A stretch of 41,905 nt of DNA, taken from NCBI GenBank assembly GCA_010365215.1, contig JAAFGT010000030.1, forward strand, positions 1 to 41,905, in the 5' to 3' direction. A model generated the notes under the pieces. It searched no databases. It saw only the letters and a list, made by a program, of their open reading frames with translations, and was not told the origin of the DNA. The stretch is from Acidipila sp. (GTDB lineage: Bacteria > Acidobacteriota > Terriglobia > Acidiferrales > UBA7541). How positions within the stretch are numbered: the stretch's first letter is position 1; every line of letters begins with the position of its first letter. Shown piece after piece: positions 24,347-32,118 of this stretch. Made by a program: the position numbers and the translations under genes.

Positions 24347-24440
24347 ACGTCATTCGCGAGACCTGTACCGGCAACTGGCATGAGTCCGGCCCGGTGCGCA
24401 ACTTTCTGCCTGGGGTGGGGTTGGATACAATGTGGAGGTC

Positions 24441-25067
24441 ATGGCCAGCTCTGACGTCCAGCTGATGCTCGAGGTGAAGCAGGGAGACGAGGCCGCCTTC
24501 GAGCTTCTCTTGCAGCGCTATCGCACACCCTTGTGCCACTTCTTATCGCGCATGGTCCGTGATCCGGCCTTGGCAGAAGACCTCGCCCAGGAAGTGTTTC
24601 TGCGAGTTTATCGCGCGCGCAAGGATTACCAACCCAGCGCGAAGTTCACTACGTGGCTTTTCCGGATTGCTACCAATCTGGCGCTCAACGCCATCCGCGA
24701 CGGGCGCTTCCGCAAAAGCGAAGATTCTCTGGACGAGCGCAGGGAAGGCGAAGACGGCGAGTCCGTCGCTTTCGAGGTGCCGGATGGCCATCCCGGCGCC
24801 GAACAGCATCTGATCGACGAGGATCGCGCCGCCATGATCCGCCGCGCGGTACTGTCGCTCCCGGAAAAACAGCGCGCCGCCGTTCTACTGCACAAGTTTC
24901 ACGAAATGGATTACGAGGATATCGCGCGGATTCTGGATTGCTCGATGAGCGCGCTCAAGTCACTTCTGTTCCGCGCGTATGAAACGCTGCGAGTGCAACT
25001 GGCCCCCATGGCCGCATCTGCGAAAGCGGGAGGCTCAAGGGGCGGTGTTGGAGGAAGTTCGTCATGA
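24441..25067 (+). CDS. ECF-type RNA polymerase sigma factor
   Basis: The 208-residue product is a group 4 (ECF, sigma-E/RpoE-like) sigma factor. Region 2 (about residues 22-90) contains the -10 recognition helix with DLAQEVFLRVYRA and FTTWLFRIATNLALNAIRD. Region 4 (about 130-185) contains LPEKQRAAVLLHKFHEMDY and the helix-turn-helix DIARILDCSMSALKSLLFRAY. The start is taken as the ATG at 24441, with GGAGG only two to three bases upstream; a GTG at 24432 is the alternative. Its stop overlaps the downstream anti-sigma gene as ATGA, so the pair is translationally coupled. The sequence before it (GCAACTTT at about 24399) loosely resembles an ECF -35, which would allow autoregulation. Confidence 0.92.
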   Translation: MASSDVQLMLEVKQGDEAAFELLLQRYRTPLCHFLSRMVRDPALAEDLAQEVFLRVYRARKDYQPSAKFTTWLFRIATNLALNAIRDGRFRKSEDSLDERREGEDGESVAFEVPDGHPGAEQHLIDEDRAAMIRRAVLSLPEKQRAAVLLHKFHEMDYEDIARILDCSMSALKSLLFRAYETLRVQLAPMAASAKAGGSRGGVGGSSS

Positions 25068-25513
25068 TGAATTGCGAAAAAATGGAGAGGGAACTAATTG
25101 CCTATCTCGATGGGCGGGCCCCCGCTTCCTTGCGCCGGGAGATAGACCTGCACCTGGCCACTTGCCCTGCCTGCCACGCGCGTGCCGCGGAATTCCAGCA
25201 GATATCGAATCTGCTCGACGAGTTTCCGGCACCTGATCCTTCCCCCTATTTCGATGCGCGGCTGCGCAACCGCCTGGCTACCGAACCGCGGCGGAGCTGG
25301 TGGTCAGTGTGGCTGCCACAGCCGCGGCTGGCGCTGGCCACCGCCGCATTGTTGATTCTTGGCGCTTGGGTTTCCACATTTCCGCCGGATACGCCCCCGC
25401 CCGCACCTGTCCAGGCGGAGGAAGAATTTCGCATGATCAAAGACATGCCCGTACTGGAAAATTACGATGTGCTGGCGAATCTGGATGCTTTGTCGGAGAT
25501 CGCGGCGGATTAA
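25064..25513 (+). CDS. Membrane anti-sigma factor with zinc-finger-type (zf-HC2) domain
   Basis: The 149-residue product starts within the sigma stop codon (ATGA). Its N-terminus carries an anti-sigma zinc motif with Cys4 and HLATCPAC (His, Cys, Cys at about residues 30-37), the H-x3-C-x2-C signature of ZAS/zf-HC2 anti-sigma factors. One membrane helix (about 88-106, LALATAALLILGAWVSTF) follows, and a short external tail rich in Pro, Glu and Asp. It should hold the ECF sigma at the membrane until a signal arrives. The tail includes MPVLENYDVLANLDALSEI, which is seen in comparable short anti-sigma proteins. The signal is unknown. Confidence 0.9.
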   Translation: MMNCEKMERELIAYLDGRAPASLRREIDLHLATCPACHARAAEFQQISNLLDEFPAPDPSPYFDARLRNRLATEPRRSWWSVWLPQPRLALATAALLILGAWVSTFPPDTPPPAPVQAEEEFRMIKDMPVLENYDVLANLDALSEIAAD

Positions 25514-25531
25514 TCGGGGACAGACGAGAAT

Positions 25532-26302
25532 ATGCGCAGCGGGTACAACACTTTCGGCTTACTGAGCGTGGCGCTGGCCGCGGCGATCTCGGTAGCGCCT
25601 GCGCAGGCGCAGCGGGGTCTCGGTCAAGGCAAAGCCGCCCAAGCGAAAAACTCAAAGTCGAAAAAGAGGCCGCCAGCGGATCGAGCGAGTCGAGACAAAG
25701 CCCGTTCAGGGCACGCTCGTTCAGGCCAGGCCGCCGCTCCGCCCGCGCAGAATCACGGAACCGCGCCTGTTCCCCAATCTAAAACGGAGAATACTGTTCC
25801 GCCGAAACCGAATGCAGCCAGTCCGGGTGCCCGGAACGTGCCGGCCGGTCAGAACGTTCCTCCGCAATGGATGGAACGCCTTCAGAAGCTGCCTCCGGCC
25901 GAGCAAGAGCGCTTCATGACCAACAATGAGCGTTTCCGCAATTTGCCTCCGGAGCAGAAGGCACAGATTCGTGAACGGTTGCGTGAATTTCACCAGCTTT
26001 CGCCGGAGGAGCGGCAGAAACTTCGCGAGCGGGCAAATGTTTGGGAGAAAATACCGCCGGAGCAGCGCCAACGCGTGCGACAGGAGATTTTGCCCCGGTG
26101 GAAGCAGATGTCGCCGGACCGCCGCGAAGAAATCAAACACCGCCTCAATGCCCTAAATGGGCTGAGCGAACAGGACCGCGCCGCGAAATTGCGAGACCCA
26201 AATTTCGTGCGCGGGTTAGACTCCTCGGAACAGGACATGCTGCGAAACCTGAGCAATCTGCGCGTTACCCCCGCCACAGGAGCAGTTGGAGATCATCAGT
26301 AA
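25532..26302 (+). CDS. Secreted DUF3106 protein with tandem PPEQ-type helical repeats
   Basis: The 256-residue product has a signal peptide (residues 1-26, ending AQA). A low-complexity linker rich in Lys, Ala, Pro and Gln follows (about 27-115). The rest is a run of helix-turn repeats of about 17-23 residues, each opening with L-P/S-P-E-x-R/Q (LPPAEQERF, LPPEQKAQI, LSPEERQKL, IPPEQRQRV, MSPDRREEI, LSEQDRAAK). This is the DUF3106 pattern and recalls the LTxxQ repeats of periplasmic Spy/CpxP/CnrX-type proteins. It starts 18 bp after the anti-sigma stop, so it is probably the third gene of the ECF operon. It could be a periplasmic sensor or chaperone, which is inference only. Confidence 0.85.
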   Translation: MRSGYNTFGLLSVALAAAISVAPAQAQRGLGQGKAAQAKNSKSKKRPPADRASRDKARSGHARSGQAAAPPAQNHGTAPVPQSKTENTVPPKPNAASPGARNVPAGQNVPPQWMERLQKLPPAEQERFMTNNERFRNLPPEQKAQIRERLREFHQLSPEERQKLRERANVWEKIPPEQRQRVRQEILPRWKQMSPDRREEIKHRLNALNGLSEQDRAAKLRDPNFVRGLDSSEQDMLRNLSNLRVTPATGAVGDHQ

Positions 26303-26555: not shown

Positions 26556-26583
26556 TTGACACACCAGGGAATGAGCGTAGATT
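26556..26583 (+). promoter_or_regulatory. mraZp: Sigma70-type promoter of mraZ and the dcw cluster
   Basis: A perfect -35 TTGACA (26556-26561) and a -10 TAGATT (26578-26583, four of six matches) are separated by 16 bp. Transcription would begin near 26590 and give a leader of about 85 nt before mraZ. The MraZ-type repeats start within and just after the -10, as in the E. coli Pmra promoter. Confidence 0.65.
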
Positions 26584-26584
26584 C

Positions 26585-26630
26585 GTGGCACAAAGTGGGA
26601 AGAAGTGGTTAGAAGTGTAAAGCGGTGGCC
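26585..26630 (+). promoter_or_regulatory. Phased GTGG repeats, probable MraZ operator
   Basis: GTGGCA (26585), GTGGGA (26595), GTGGTT (26605), GTGTAA (26615) and GTGGCC (26625) start exactly 10 bp apart. MraZ is known to bind tandem TGGGA or AAAGTG-type units at one-helical-turn spacing in its own promoter, and here the array overlaps the predicted transcription start. Autorepression of the cluster by MraZ is therefore likely. Confidence 0.75.
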
Positions 26631-26674
26631 GGGACGGGGCGTCCTGACATGGCTTTAGGGCTGGTTAGAAAACA

Positions 26675-27114: not shown

Positions 27115-28005
27115 GTGACCGGGCTGCACACGCCGGTACTTGTAGATGAGATTTTACACTGGCTGCAAATCAGGGCGGACGGCATCTACATCGACGCCAC
27201 GACCGGCACGGGCGGTCACGCCTTCGAGATTGCGAAGCAGCTCAGGACGGGCCGGCTGGTCGGGATTGACCGCGACGCACAAGCACTGGAAATTGCGCGG
27301 GAGAGACTGAAAGAATTCGGGGAGCGGGTGACTCTGGTGCAAGGAAATTTCTCAAGCATCGTCGAGATCGCAACGCGGCTGAAAATTGCGTCGGTGGACG
27401 GGATTGTGGCCGACCTGGGCGTCTCGAGCTTGCAGCTCGACACCATGGAGCGCGGATTTTCTTTTCGCGGCGCCGGCCCACTCGATATGCGCATGGATTC
27501 GGGAGCGGGAGAAACCGCCGCAGAGATTGTGAATCACTGGCCGGAGCGCGACCTGGCCAACCTCCTCTACCAGTTCGGCGAGGAGAGGGATTCACGCAGG
27601 ATCGCCAGGAACATTGTTCGGCAGCGCCCCATCCGGGACACCGAACATCTGGCAACGGTTGTGGCAGGAGCCCAGAACAGGGGAAGGCAGAGACTGCATC
27701 CCGCGACAAAAACATTTCTGGCGCTGCGGTTAGCGGTGAATAGAGAGTTGGAGGAACTCGAGCAGTTTCTTGACCAGGCTCCCGCCACATTATCTTCCGG
27801 GGGACGCCTGGCGATCCTCAGCTACCACTCGCTTGAGGATCGCCGGGTGAAGCACACCTTCAGGCGATTGGCGCAGGAAGGCACCCTCACCGTGTTGACG
27901 AAAAAAGTGATCGAACCCACAGAACGCGAGGTGGCCGCTAATCCGCGCGCGCGCAGCGCTCGCATGCGCGTGGCGGAACGGCGGCCTGCGCTGAGGCAGT
28001 CATAA
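27115..28005 (+). CDS. rsmH: 16S rRNA m4C1402 methyltransferase RsmH
   Basis: RsmH (MraW) N4-methylates cytidine 1402 of 16S rRNA at the P site. The 296-residue protein has the N-terminal HTPVLVDEI, the SAM-binding DATTGTGGHAFEI (about 24-36), GIDRDAQAL, VDGIVADLGVSSLQLD, a helical insertion (about 125-210) and the C-terminal ILSYHSLEDRRVK with NPRARSARMR. All are family signatures. Translation starts at a GTG right after the mraZ stop, with no independent ribosome binding site, so coupling is likely. The stop shares one base with the ftsL start (TAATG). Confidence 0.95.
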   Translation: MTGLHTPVLVDEILHWLQIRADGIYIDATTGTGGHAFEIAKQLRTGRLVGIDRDAQALEIARERLKEFGERVTLVQGNFSSIVEIATRLKIASVDGIVADLGVSSLQLDTMERGFSFRGAGPLDMRMDSGAGETAAEIVNHWPERDLANLLYQFGEERDSRRIARNIVRQRPIRDTEHLATVVAGAQNRGRQRLHPATKTFLALRLAVNRELEELEQFLDQAPATLSSGGRLAILSYHSLEDRRVKHTFRRLAQEGTLTVLTKKVIEPTEREVAANPRARSARMRVAERRPALRQS

Positions 28006-28385
28006 TGGAATTTTTTACAGTCAAACGCATCGACAATTCGCGGCTGGTTCGCCAGGTGGCGCCGCAGCAGTGGCGCGAGTTCGGCGGTCCGGCGCTGGTG
28101 GTAACGCTGCTCGCGGCGATTCTGCTGGTCTATGCCGCGCAATATTACCAGTGCCTGTCCGTTCGCTATCAGGTGGAAGAGCTCAAGGCCGCGCGGTCCG
28201 AGGCCTTGGAACTCAACCAGCAGCTAAAGCTCGAAGCTGCCTCGTTACGGGCCCCGCTGCGCATCGACATGATTGCGCGGAACCGCCTGGGCCTTACCGC
28301 ACCGGTTCCCGGGCAGGTGACGCCGGTGGCCGCGCCGGCCGGCGCCATGATGGCGCAGGCGAGCCGCTCGCAGGCTTCGCAGTAG
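28005..28385 (+). CDS. ftsL: FtsL-like cell division protein
   Basis: FtsL is a small bitopic divisome protein that with FtsB and FtsQ activates the FtsW-FtsI synthase. This 126-residue product has a short cytoplasmic N-terminus, one membrane helix (about 31-50, LVVTLLAAILLVYAAQYYQ) and an extracytoplasmic coiled coil (about 55-85) ending in the conserved-looking IDMIARNRLGLTAP. Sequence conservation of FtsL is always low, so the assignment rests on topology, length and position between rsmH and ftsI. The last 20 residues are Ala/Gln/Ser-rich. Its ATG overlaps the rsmH stop. Confidence 0.82.
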   Translation: MEFFTVKRIDNSRLVRQVAPQQWREFGGPALVVTLLAAILLVYAAQYYQCLSVRYQVEELKAARSEALELNQQLKLEAASLRAPLRIDMIARNRLGLTAPVPGQVTPVAAPAGAMMAQASRSQASQ

Positions 28386-28467
28386 GCACCGGGTCAGCGA
28401 CGCAACGGCTTAGCACAAAGTAAAAAAGGCGGCAGGAAGTCGCCCGACAAACTTGTCACAAACCGCA

Positions 28468-30555
28468 ATGGATCGCCGCCCTCCCTCGACACGCATTCTT
28501 TACCTGGCAATCTTCGCGGCCCTGTGGATGGGGGCGGTGGACGCCCGCCTAAGCTATCTGCAACTTTTCAAATACAGCGACTATCTGGCGCGCGCGCGCC
28601 GCCAGCAGCAGCGCATCGTTGAAGTCACCCCGCTGCGCGGTAATTTATACGACCGCAACCTGCGCGAGATGGCTATGAGCATCTCGCTCGATTCCTGCTT
28701 TGCGGTTCCCGCGGAAATTTCCGACCCGGAGATGGTGGCGCGTCTGCTGGCAGGCGTGTTGGGAGTGCACACCGAAGAGATCGAAACGCGGCTGGACGGC
28801 TCGCGCTCTTTTGTGTGGATTGCCCGCAAACTCCAGCCGGAAATCGTGGAGCGAATCCAGGCGCTCAATCTTCGCGGCATCTATTTTCAGAAGGAGCACC
28901 GCCGCTTTTATCCCAAAGGGGAGCTCGCCGCGCACGTTTTAGGGTACGTGGATATAGATGACCGCGGCCTAGGCGGGATTGAATATCAGTTCGAACAGCA
29001 GTTGCGCACCCCCGCCTCGCGCATGCTGGTGCTGGCCGATGCACGTCGCCGCTGGTACGAGCGCCACGGACCCAATCAGGCGCGCGACACCAGCCTGGTG
29101 CTGACGCTCGATGAAAATATTCAGTTCATCGCGGAAAAAGAGCTGGGGGCTGCTATTGCACGGACGCATGCCAAGGCGGGCACGGTCATCGTGCAGGATC
29201 CCAACAGCGGCGAGTTGCTGGCCGTAGCCAACTGGCCCACTTTCGATCCCAACAGCGCAGGCTCGAGCGCGCCCGAGGCGCGCATGGACCGCGCCATCAG
29301 CGCGCTCTACGAGCCAGGCTCGACGTTCAAAGTAATCACGCTGGCGGCGGCGCTCGAAGAACACCTCACCCACGCCGACGAGCTGATCGACTGCCAGATG
29401 GGCGCGATCTACATCGGGAAGCATCGTATTCGCGACCACAAGCCTTACGGCATGCTCACCGTGTCGCAGATTCTTTCGAACTCCAGCGACGTGGGCGCCA
29501 TCAAGCTGGGGTTGCGCCTGGGGCCTGAAAAATTTCATCACTACATTCGCGCCTTCGGTTTTGGCACGGCCAGCGGCGTCGAGCTACCGGGTGAAACGCG
29601 GGGCCTGGTGCGTCGCGTGGAGGCGTGGTCGGCGATTTCCATCGGCGCAGTTTCCATGGGCCAGGAAGTGGGGGTAACGCCCGTGCAGCTCGCTGGCGCG
29701 ATCTCCGCCATCGCGAATGGCGGTCTGCTGTACCGGCCGCGCGTGGTGCGCGAAATTCATCATGGCGGGCTTATCGTGCCGGAAACGCAGGAACCGCCGG
29801 CACGCGTGGTACGTCCGGAAACCGCTGCCACTTTGCGGGGCATGCTGGAGGGCGTGATTCGCGAGGGCACCGGCAAAAAAGCCAGGCTGAACGGATACAC
29901 CGCCGGAGGCAAGACAGGTACGGCGCAGAAAATTGACCCAGCCACCGGCCGCTATTCGGGCCGCGAGTACATAAGTTCTTTTGTCGGTTTCGCCCCGCTT
30001 AATTCGCCGGTGGTCACGGTGCTGGTAGCGCTGGACGCCGCCGTGGGAGCTCATGGTGGAGGCGACATCGCCGCACCGGTTTTCCAACAGGTGACGCAGC
30101 AAACGCTGGCGTACCTGCGCGTGGCGCCGGATACGCCGCTGCAGCCTGCAACCGAGCAGGCTGCAGGTCCGCACCCGCAGCAGTTCGTGAAAGAGGAAGA
30201 CTTAAGCGACTTCGATCCCGCGCAGGTTGCCGACGCTACCGCAGCGGCCGTGCCCGGTCCCGAAGATTTCAGTTCGCGCGACGCGAAAGGCGCCGAGCCG
30301 GCAGCAAAGAGCGCTCACGCGACGGTGGTGGTGGAAGATGGAGAAGGCATCGTCGTGCCGCAGTTTGGGGGGATGACCGTGCGCAACTTCATTGAGCAGT
30401 GTATGCGCCTCGGCTTTAACCCCGTGCCGGTCGGCACGGGAATTGCAGTAGACCAGTTACCGGCGCCCGGCCTGCGGGCGCACCCGGGCAGCCGTGTGGT
30501 TGTGCGCTTTACGCCCCGCGCAGCCACACAGACCGTGGCTCAGAAGGAAAAATAA
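28468..30555 (+). CDS. ftsI: Septal penicillin-binding protein FtsI (class B PBP) with C-terminal PASTA domain
   Basis: FtsI is the septal peptidoglycan transpeptidase. This 695-residue product has one N-terminal membrane helix (about 11-30), a PBP dimerisation/pedestal domain with RGNLYDRN, and a transpeptidase domain. Active-site motifs are STFK (Ser285, Lys288), SNS (337-339) and KTG (482-484). After a Pro/Ala-rich linker (about 560-625) comes a PASTA domain (about 629-690) beginning VVPQFGGMTVRNF. PASTA is common in Gram-positive PBP2x/SpoVD and uncommon in proteobacterial FtsI. The ATG at 28468 (MDRRPPSTR) is preferred; a TTG at 28453 would add five residues. The 82-bp gap after ftsL has no other feature. 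Confidence 0.93.
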   Translation: MDRRPPSTRILYLAIFAALWMGAVDARLSYLQLFKYSDYLARARRQQQRIVEVTPLRGNLYDRNLREMAMSISLDSCFAVPAEISDPEMVARLLAGVLGVHTEEIETRLDGSRSFVWIARKLQPEIVERIQALNLRGIYFQKEHRRFYPKGELAAHVLGYVDIDDRGLGGIEYQFEQQLRTPASRMLVLADARRRWYERHGPNQARDTSLVLTLDENIQFIAEKELGAAIARTHAKAGTVIVQDPNSGELLAVANWPTFDPNSAGSSAPEARMDRAISALYEPGSTFKVITLAAALEEHLTHADELIDCQMGAIYIGKHRIRDHKPYGMLTVSQILSNSSDVGAIKLGLRLGPEKFHHYIRAFGFGTASGVELPGETRGLVRRVEAWSAISIGAVSMGQEVGVTPVQLAGAISAIANGGLLYRPRVVREIHHGGLIVPETQEPPARVVRPETAATLRGMLEGVIREGTGKKARLNGYTAGGKTGTAQKIDPATGRYSGREYISSFVGFAPLNSPVVTVLVALDAAVGAHGGGDIAAPVFQQVTQQTLAYLRVAPDTPLQPATEQAAGPHPQQFVKEEDLSDFDPAQVADATAAAVPGPEDFSSRDAKGAEPAAKSAHATVVVEDGEGIVVPQFGGMTVRNFIEQCMRLGFNPVPVGTGIAVDQLPAPGLRAHPGSRVVVRFTPRAATQTVAQKEK

Positions 30556-30630
30556 AATTTGAGTATTCGCACTGTTGGCCGCAGCGGTTTGAGAGTGGAG
30601 ACTCGAAAATCTATCCGGGTAAATGTTGGC

Positions 30631-32118
30631 ATGAAGCTTAGGGAACTCTTGGAGGGCGTCGACGTCCTCGGAATTTTTGGCCCGGCTGATGCCCAGGTCT
30701 CCTCGATCGCGTGCGATAGCCGCAAGGCCGCTATTGGCGGGCTATTTGTGGCGCTGCGCGGTGCGGCCGCGGATGGCAATGCATTTGCCGGGCAGGCTAT
30801 TGAGAGCGGCGCAAGCGTTATCGTCAGCGAACAGGGACGCCCTGCGGGCGTAGCGGAATCGGTTTCGTGGGTGCAAGTGGAGAATTCCCGCCATGCATTG
30901 GCGATTATTTCCGCGAACTTTTACGGCAGGCCGGCAGAAACGCTGCAACTGGTGGGCATTACCGGGACGAACGGCAAGACCACAACATCTTATTTGGTGG
31001 ACTCGCTACTGTGTGCTGCCGGACACAAGACGGGTCTATTCGGCACAATCGCCTATCGAACTCCACGGGGTGGACAGGTGGCGAAGAACACGACTCCGGA
31101 GTCGCTGGACCTGGAGCGGTTCTTCGCAGAAGTGCGCGACGCGGGCGGCACGCACGCAACGCTGGAGGTCAGCTCGCACGCACTGGCCATGGATCGCGTG
31201 TGGGGCCTGCAGTTTGCCGTGGCCGTTTTCACCAATCTGACGCGCGATCACCTCGACTATCACAAGACCATGGAAGAATATTTCGCCGCCAAGCGTCTGC
31301 TGTTCGACGGCCTTGGCGCTCCTCCTCCGGGCTGCGGCGTTGTGAACGCGGACGATCCGCGCGCCGCAGACCTCGCCGGACGCGCGCGTAGAACGCTGAC
31401 TTATGGCATCGAAAATAACGCCGATATTTCGGTAAAAAAGTTTTCGTTGTCATCTACGGGCCTCGAATTTACGGCGCAGACTCCGGTGGGCCGGGTGGAG
31501 ATCAATTCTGCGCTGGTAGGGCGCATCAATGTTTACAACATTCTCGCGGCCGTAGGCGCGGGCATCGCGCTGGGCCTGGACCGCGAAGCTATCGAGGTTG
31601 GCGTGAGAAACTGCCGTGCGGTTCCCGGCCGGTTCGAGCGCGTGGATGAAGGCCAGCCATTTCTGGTAGTCGTGGATTATGCCCACACCGACGACGCGCT
31701 GCGGAACCTGATCCAGACGGCGCGCGAGCTGCTGGGAAAAAATGGCCGCGTCATTACGCTTTTCGGCTGTGGTGGCGAACGCGACCGTACCAAGCGGCCG
31801 CTGATGGGTGAGGCCGCCGGGTCCCTGAGTGATTTTGTTGTGCTGACCAGCGACAATCCTCGCAGCGAAGATCCACTCAAGATAATTAATGACGCAGTGG
31901 TGGGCCTGCAGCGCGCGCAGGCCAACTACGTGATTGAACCCGAGCGCTCGCGCGCCGTTGAAATCGCGCTGGAACGCGCGCAGGCAGGCGACATCGTTCT
32001 TCTGGCCGGGAAGGGTCACGAGACCTACCAGGTTTTGCGCGAGCGCACGCTGGATTTTGACGACCGTACCGAAGCACGTCGCGTGCTGCACGCGCGCGGT
32101 TTTCGAGGTTCGAACTGA
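30631..32118 (+). CDS. murE: UDP-MurNAc-tripeptide synthetase MurE (meso-DAP type)
   Basis: MurE adds the third residue of the stem peptide. The 495-residue product has an N-terminal substrate domain (DSRKAAIGGLFVALRG), the ATP loop GITGTNGKTTTS (about 110-121), the Mur central-domain FTNLTRDHLDYH, and a C-terminal domain with DNPRSEDP (Asp408-Arg411). DNPR is the meso-diaminopimelate recognition motif, so the wall should be mDAP type; the Lys enzymes have a different sequence here. I start at the ATG at 30631 (MKLRELLEGV), where homologues begin; an in-frame TTG at 30559 right after ftsI is the alternative. The 111-bp gap before murF is the longest among the mur genes. Confidence 0.94.
   Translation: MKLRELLEGVDVLGIFGPADAQVSSIACDSRKAAIGGLFVALRGAAADGNAFAGQAIESGASVIVSEQGRPAGVAESVSWVQVENSRHALAIISANFYGRPAETLQLVGITGTNGKTTTSYLVDSLLCAAGHKTGLFGTIAYRTPRGGQVAKNTTPESLDLERFFAEVRDAGGTHATLEVSSHALAMDRVWGLQFAVAVFTNLTRDHLDYHKTMEEYFAAKRLLFDGLGAPPPGCGVVNADDPRAADLAGRARRTLTYGIENNADISVKKFSLSSTGLEFTAQTPVGRVEINSALVGRINVYNILAAVGAGIALGLDREAIEVGVRNCRAVPGRFERVDEGQPFLVVVDYAHTDDALRNLIQTARELLGKNGRVITLFGCGGERDRTKRPLMGEAAGSLSDFVVLTSDNPRSEDPLKIINDAVVGLQRAQANYVIEPERSRAVEIALERAQAGDIVLLAGKGHETYQVLRERTLDFDDRTEARRVLHARGFRGSN

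Follow-up and report, generated by a model that had tools for sequence, protein, structure and literature searches.

What reads the row of GTGG-type repeats upstream of mraZ, the first gene of the dcw cluster, in this acidobacterial genome? We addressed this in a contig stretch of 41,905 nt (the window, meaning the whole stretch of DNA that was analysed). The initial annotation had described five GTGG or GTGT units in exact 10-bp phase just behind a TTGACA-N16-TAGATT promoter and had proposed them as an operator for MraZ. Direct reading of the sequence confirmed all five units and their phase, as well as the promoter, which has a spacer of 16 nt. A promoter scan of the intergenic region returned this promoter as its sole hit, with 10 of 12 matches, against 0.4 such hits expected by chance. 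Each unit has a GTG[G/T] core, usually with AA just before it, and the first unit starts 90 bp upstream of mraZ. The array lies directly upstream of the cluster. Because the -10 element ends at 26583, transcription would be expected to start near 26590 (about 26589–26592). A small palindrome, GGGACGGGGCGTCC (26631–26644), adjoins unit 5, is the same in locus L004 (genome G018), and folds as a leader hairpin, GGGACG-GGG-CGUCC. On the evidence below, the array is very probably an autoregulatory MraZ operator of the dcw promoter, with both binding and repression as predicted properties.

The identification of mraZ and of an acidobacterial dcw cluster was borne out by the protein family matches to mraZ, rsmH, ftsL/divIC-like, ftsI, and murE genes (Table 1) and by acidobacterial relatives, the nearest named ones being Acidobacteria gp2 and Ca. 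Acidiferrales. The genes on the other side of the intergenic region (window positions 24432–26302) share their strand with the dcw cluster and encode an ECF-type sigma factor (PF04542, PF08281), a zinc-finger anti-sigma-like protein (PF13490), and the DUF3106 protein.

Table 1. Features of the mraZ upstream region, the adjoining genes, and loci with long arrays
Feature	Position or locus	Strand	Basis or remark
-35 element TTGACA	26556..26561	+	direct sequence reading, promoter scan
-10 element TAGATT	26578..26583	+	direct reading, promoter scan; 1 base (C) before unit 1
MraZ box 1 GTGGCACAAA (putative)	26585..26594	+	direct reading
MraZ box 2 GTGGGAAGAA (putative)	26595..26604	+	direct reading
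MraZ box 3 GTGGTTAGAA (putative)	26605..26614	+	direct reading
MraZ box 4 GTGTAAAGCG (putative)	26615..26624	+	direct reading; degenerate unit, GTGT
MraZ box 5 GTGGCCGGGA (putative)	26625..26634	+	direct reading
DUF3106 gene, 5' border of intergenic region	25532..26302		
mraZ, presumed array-binding repressor, 145 aa	26675..27112	+	PF02381, E 4e-18
rsmH (mraW)	27115..28005	+	PF01795, E 1.6e-103
ftsL/divIC-like	28005..28385	+	PF04977, E 4.7e-6, under curated cut-off; cluster position
ftsI-type penicillin-binding protein	28453..30555	+	PF00905, PF03717
murE-type Mur ligase	30559..32118	+	PF08245, PF02875, PF01225
Long arrays (5–8 in-phase units)	L026, L029, L093, L100, L107, L111, L145		

Chance does not account for the array. 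Five GTG at 10-bp steps occurred once in the window and in none of 100 dinucleotide shuffles, and the mraZ array was the only place in the window with five GTGG at 10-bp steps when one mismatch was allowed. Among 20,000 order-1 Markov regions matched to the intergenic region in length and composition, the longest GTG chain had three units. A search of all 4.1 Mb of the genome placed three GTGG at 10-bp steps at mraZ and at one other site (C51:2101), the single further place that this search offered for a wider regulon. Four GTG at 10-bp steps were found genome-wide at the mraZ array and otherwise only in one 10-bp minisatellite (L065, G000:C26:23627-23669), which has ~4.5 copies of a GTGAGTTGAC-type repeat and mimics a GTG array with identical spacers.

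The initial annotation had stated that its proposal would be refuted if close relatives did not conserve the repeats; the repeats proved to be strongly conserved. MraZ relatives were found in 56 of the 61 related genomes, in 80 contigs from named genomes, and, phylum-wide, in 55 of 60 genomes. We scored each upstream region by its best chain, as the number of units plus the number of perfect units, counting as a unit anything within one mismatch of GTGG, a loose rule that may add a chance unit at the array end. When 118 distinct regions upstream of mraZ were scored in this way, the mean was 7.17 at period 10 versus 2.24–2.72 at periods 5–9 and 11–16; 107 of them reached a score of 6 at period 10, and 0–3 did so at any other period in the range 5–16. 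Neither shuffled regions nor mraZ coding controls scored above 4. In other parts of the phylum, a score of 6 at period 10 was reached by 27 of 49 upstream regions, and at other periods by none. The 11 regions of the 118 without a clear chain included second mraZ copies and regions whose array may lie elsewhere.

We note several features of individual loci. Three second mraZ-like genes, L051 (G027:C176), L052 (G029:C104), and L053 (G007:C333), have no 10-bp GTGG array upstream, and their products share about 50% identity with the window MraZ. A further mraZ copy, L060 (G034:C6), is cut by the contig end and has the array. Two loci labelled Bacillota and Betaproteobacteria (L103 and L123) encode acidobacterial MraZ proteins, 62% and 60% identical to that of the window, and are probably from misnamed bins.

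Because the register must not be chosen by chain length, we also fixed 94 regions on TTGAC plus units 1 and 2. Conservation of these two units in the anchored alignment is partly by construction, since both belong to the anchoring rule; unit 2 is also present in unanchored chains. At a step of 10, the anchored regions extended by a mean of 2.41 extra units, with three or more extra units in 41 of the 94, and at steps 7–9 and 11–13 no anchored region extended by three or more. The spacing of promoter and array was nearly constant, with TTGAC 28–33 bp before unit 1 in these relatives (28–30 bp in most regions), and a TA-rich -10 immediately before the array recurred. Conserved alignment columns corresponded to GTGG and the A-rich tract ahead of each GTGG.

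Conservation differed among units. In 47 close relatives, unit 1 was GTGG in 34 and GGGG in 13, and unit 3 was GTGG in 41. Unit 4 was degenerate, reading GTAG in 15, GTGG in 11, GTGT in 8, and GTGA in 8, a pattern that the initial annotation had missed and to which the window conforms, with GTGT at 26615. One conceivable reason is that the fourth site is used unevenly. Unit 5 was GTGG or GTAG in 33 of the 47, and these two forms also occurred at units 6 and 7, in 11 close relatives each; the corresponding rate at out-of-phase offsets was about 1.4%.

Arrays also varied in length. Among the 94 anchored regions, 2 had two units, 19 had three, 32 had four, 26 had five, 9 had six, and 6 had seven; the maximum, under the unanchored rule, was eight units in L145. 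A distant family within the phylum also has arrays of five perfect units (L174, L179, L180). The array of the window had earlier been called long, which holds relative to the three or four units reported elsewhere; within its own family, five units are typical rather than exceptional, relatives have from 2 to 7–8, and one group runs to 7–8. On an MraZ tree (146 columns, with many weak forks), array-length labels clustered yet needed at least 28 changes over four length classes. Length thus changes often, and we rejected unit number as a clade marker. In four loci of the Ca. Acidiferrum-like group (L093, L100, L111, L145), we observed an extra GTGG-N5-GTGG pair, with a 9-bp step, ~80–90 bp past unit 1; the first GTGG of this pair is in array phase, at offset 80.

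The protein encoded downstream is an intact MraZ. It passed the PF02381 cut-off, with two Pfam stretches corresponding to two AbrB-like halves, and the DxxxR residues D11/R15 and their second-copy counterparts D85/R89 were invariant across 32 MraZ sequences. R15 is the residue required for DNA binding in E. coli. An AlphaFold2 monomer model (pLDDT 96) matched Mycoplasma MraZ with Z 18.5–19.1, including Z 18.5 against 9sz7, MraZ with a 4-box promoter, at only about 16%–19% sequence identity to solved MraZ.

These observations suggest how the array might work. Each 10-bp unit would be the site for one MraZ subunit, and, because the period equals one helical turn, all five sites would face the same way, which would allow adjacent subunits within a single MraZ oligomer to bind them in series. 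Cooperative binding by a ring along one face of the helix, as proposed in the initial annotation, may be the form that this takes. The array would span from directly behind the -10 element, about -5 to +40/+45, and because it fills the space behind the -10, its occupation by MraZ should prevent either the open complex from forming or the polymerase from escaping the promoter. Binding would then lower expression of mraZ-rsmH-ftsL-ftsI-murE, amounting to negative autoregulation. We propose repression by analogy with E. coli and M. genitalium, where MraZ has a repressor role (PMC8475190). Homology leaves the sign of regulation unsettled, because MraZ of M. gallisepticum is reported as an activator (account in PMC7761207). 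It is possible, if rather doubtful, that in the family of the window, and chiefly in the Ca. Acidiferrum-like group, the operator has been lengthened to 5–8 in-phase units (loci in Table 1), more than the four boxes present in the solved complex. To coat 50–80 bp of promoter and leader would then take more of the ring, a ring that has opened, or at least two oligomers, and repression could be graded or steeper than in E. coli.

Other explanations of the array are weaker than an MraZ operator, whether they invoke chance, another regulator, or RNA. The repeats could be a chance occurrence or a functionless tandem repeat produced by slipped-strand events, and the genome does contain a GTG-bearing 10-bp minisatellite at another place. 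However, no chance control reached five units, and unit spacers vary while cores are kept across many genera (MraZ identity 40%–73%). Conservation has already refuted such an origin, which we consider vanishingly improbable. A transcription factor other than MraZ might instead read the array, as a similar GTG repeat, differing by 1 nt in its spacer, is the target of HsdC in Mollicutes (PMC5282649). The array nonetheless precedes mraZ across the phylum with the 10-bp spacing seen for MraZ. The array-less second mraZ copies (L051–L053) show that a nearby mraZ is not sufficient by itself, but the window has no gene for another regulator linked to the array, and we regard another reader as very unlikely.

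The repeats might also act in the RNA leader rather than in DNA, as a site for an RNA-binding protein or as part of a structured leader. Units 2–5 are probably transcribed, and the hairpin just past the array would suit such a role, but unit 1 adjoins the -10 element and lies largely ahead of the expected start, and a strict 10-bp step is a feature of the helical turn. The same motif is, moreover, bound by MraZ as DNA in other bacteria. We rejected an RNA element, as no Rfam family matched up to E = 1 and leader folding was no better than in shuffles (z -1.26); action at the RNA level thus has only a slight probability. A G-quadruplex was rejected as well, since the array holds just one GGG run and the four runs are missing.

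An MraZ operator at this promoter, which the comparisons support strongly, would add Acidobacteriota to the bacteria in which the division and cell-wall cluster has this known autoregulatory switch. We conclude that the array is a real and conserved feature, predicted to be an MraZ operator, and that its interest lies in its natural range of lengths. With about 2 to 8 units each and similarly laid-out promoters, these arrays form a natural operator series, which could be used to test how many MraZ ring subunits must engage DNA, a question posed by the 4-box structures. A limited literature search found no description of an acidobacterial MraZ operator, which is not proof of absence, and no paper describing the 2026 Mycoplasma MraZ-promoter complex was found.

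The array closely resembles MraZ operators described in other bacteria. At the same place upstream of E. coli mraZ, we find GTGGGAAATT GTGGGGCAAA GTGGGAATAA GGGG. As in the window, GTGGG units at 10-bp steps lie between the promoter and mraZ, with TTGACA upstream, and this dcw promoter is autoregulated; the E. coli array differs in having three GTGG and one GGGG, and in a distance from TTGACA to unit 1 of 37 bp versus 29 bp in the window. The PmraBc promoter of B. cenocepacia has four 7-nt repeats, separated by 3-nt spacers, that follow the -10 and extend across the start site, and a fragment carrying them is bound by MraZ (PMC7761207). The window has five units, and binding is demonstrated for PmraBc and predicted for the window. 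In Mollicutes, the MraZ motif is AAAGTG[T/G] (PMC8475190) and the site has been given as (AAAGTGKN3)3 (PMC5282649), with which the GTGG and preceding A-rich tract of the conserved alignment columns agree. The Mollicutes site and the complexes of M. genitalium MraZ with its promoter (PDB 9sz7 and 9r4j) share with the window the AA-GTG core and the 10-bp step, and their MraZ is oligomeric, the window MraZ having been modelled as a monomer; they differ in having three or four boxes, an AT-rich host, and a protein that shares only about 16% identity with the window MraZ. The array thus belongs to the known class of MraZ operators in E. coli, Burkholderia, and Mollicutes, and its sole new element is a length beyond the three or four units described there.
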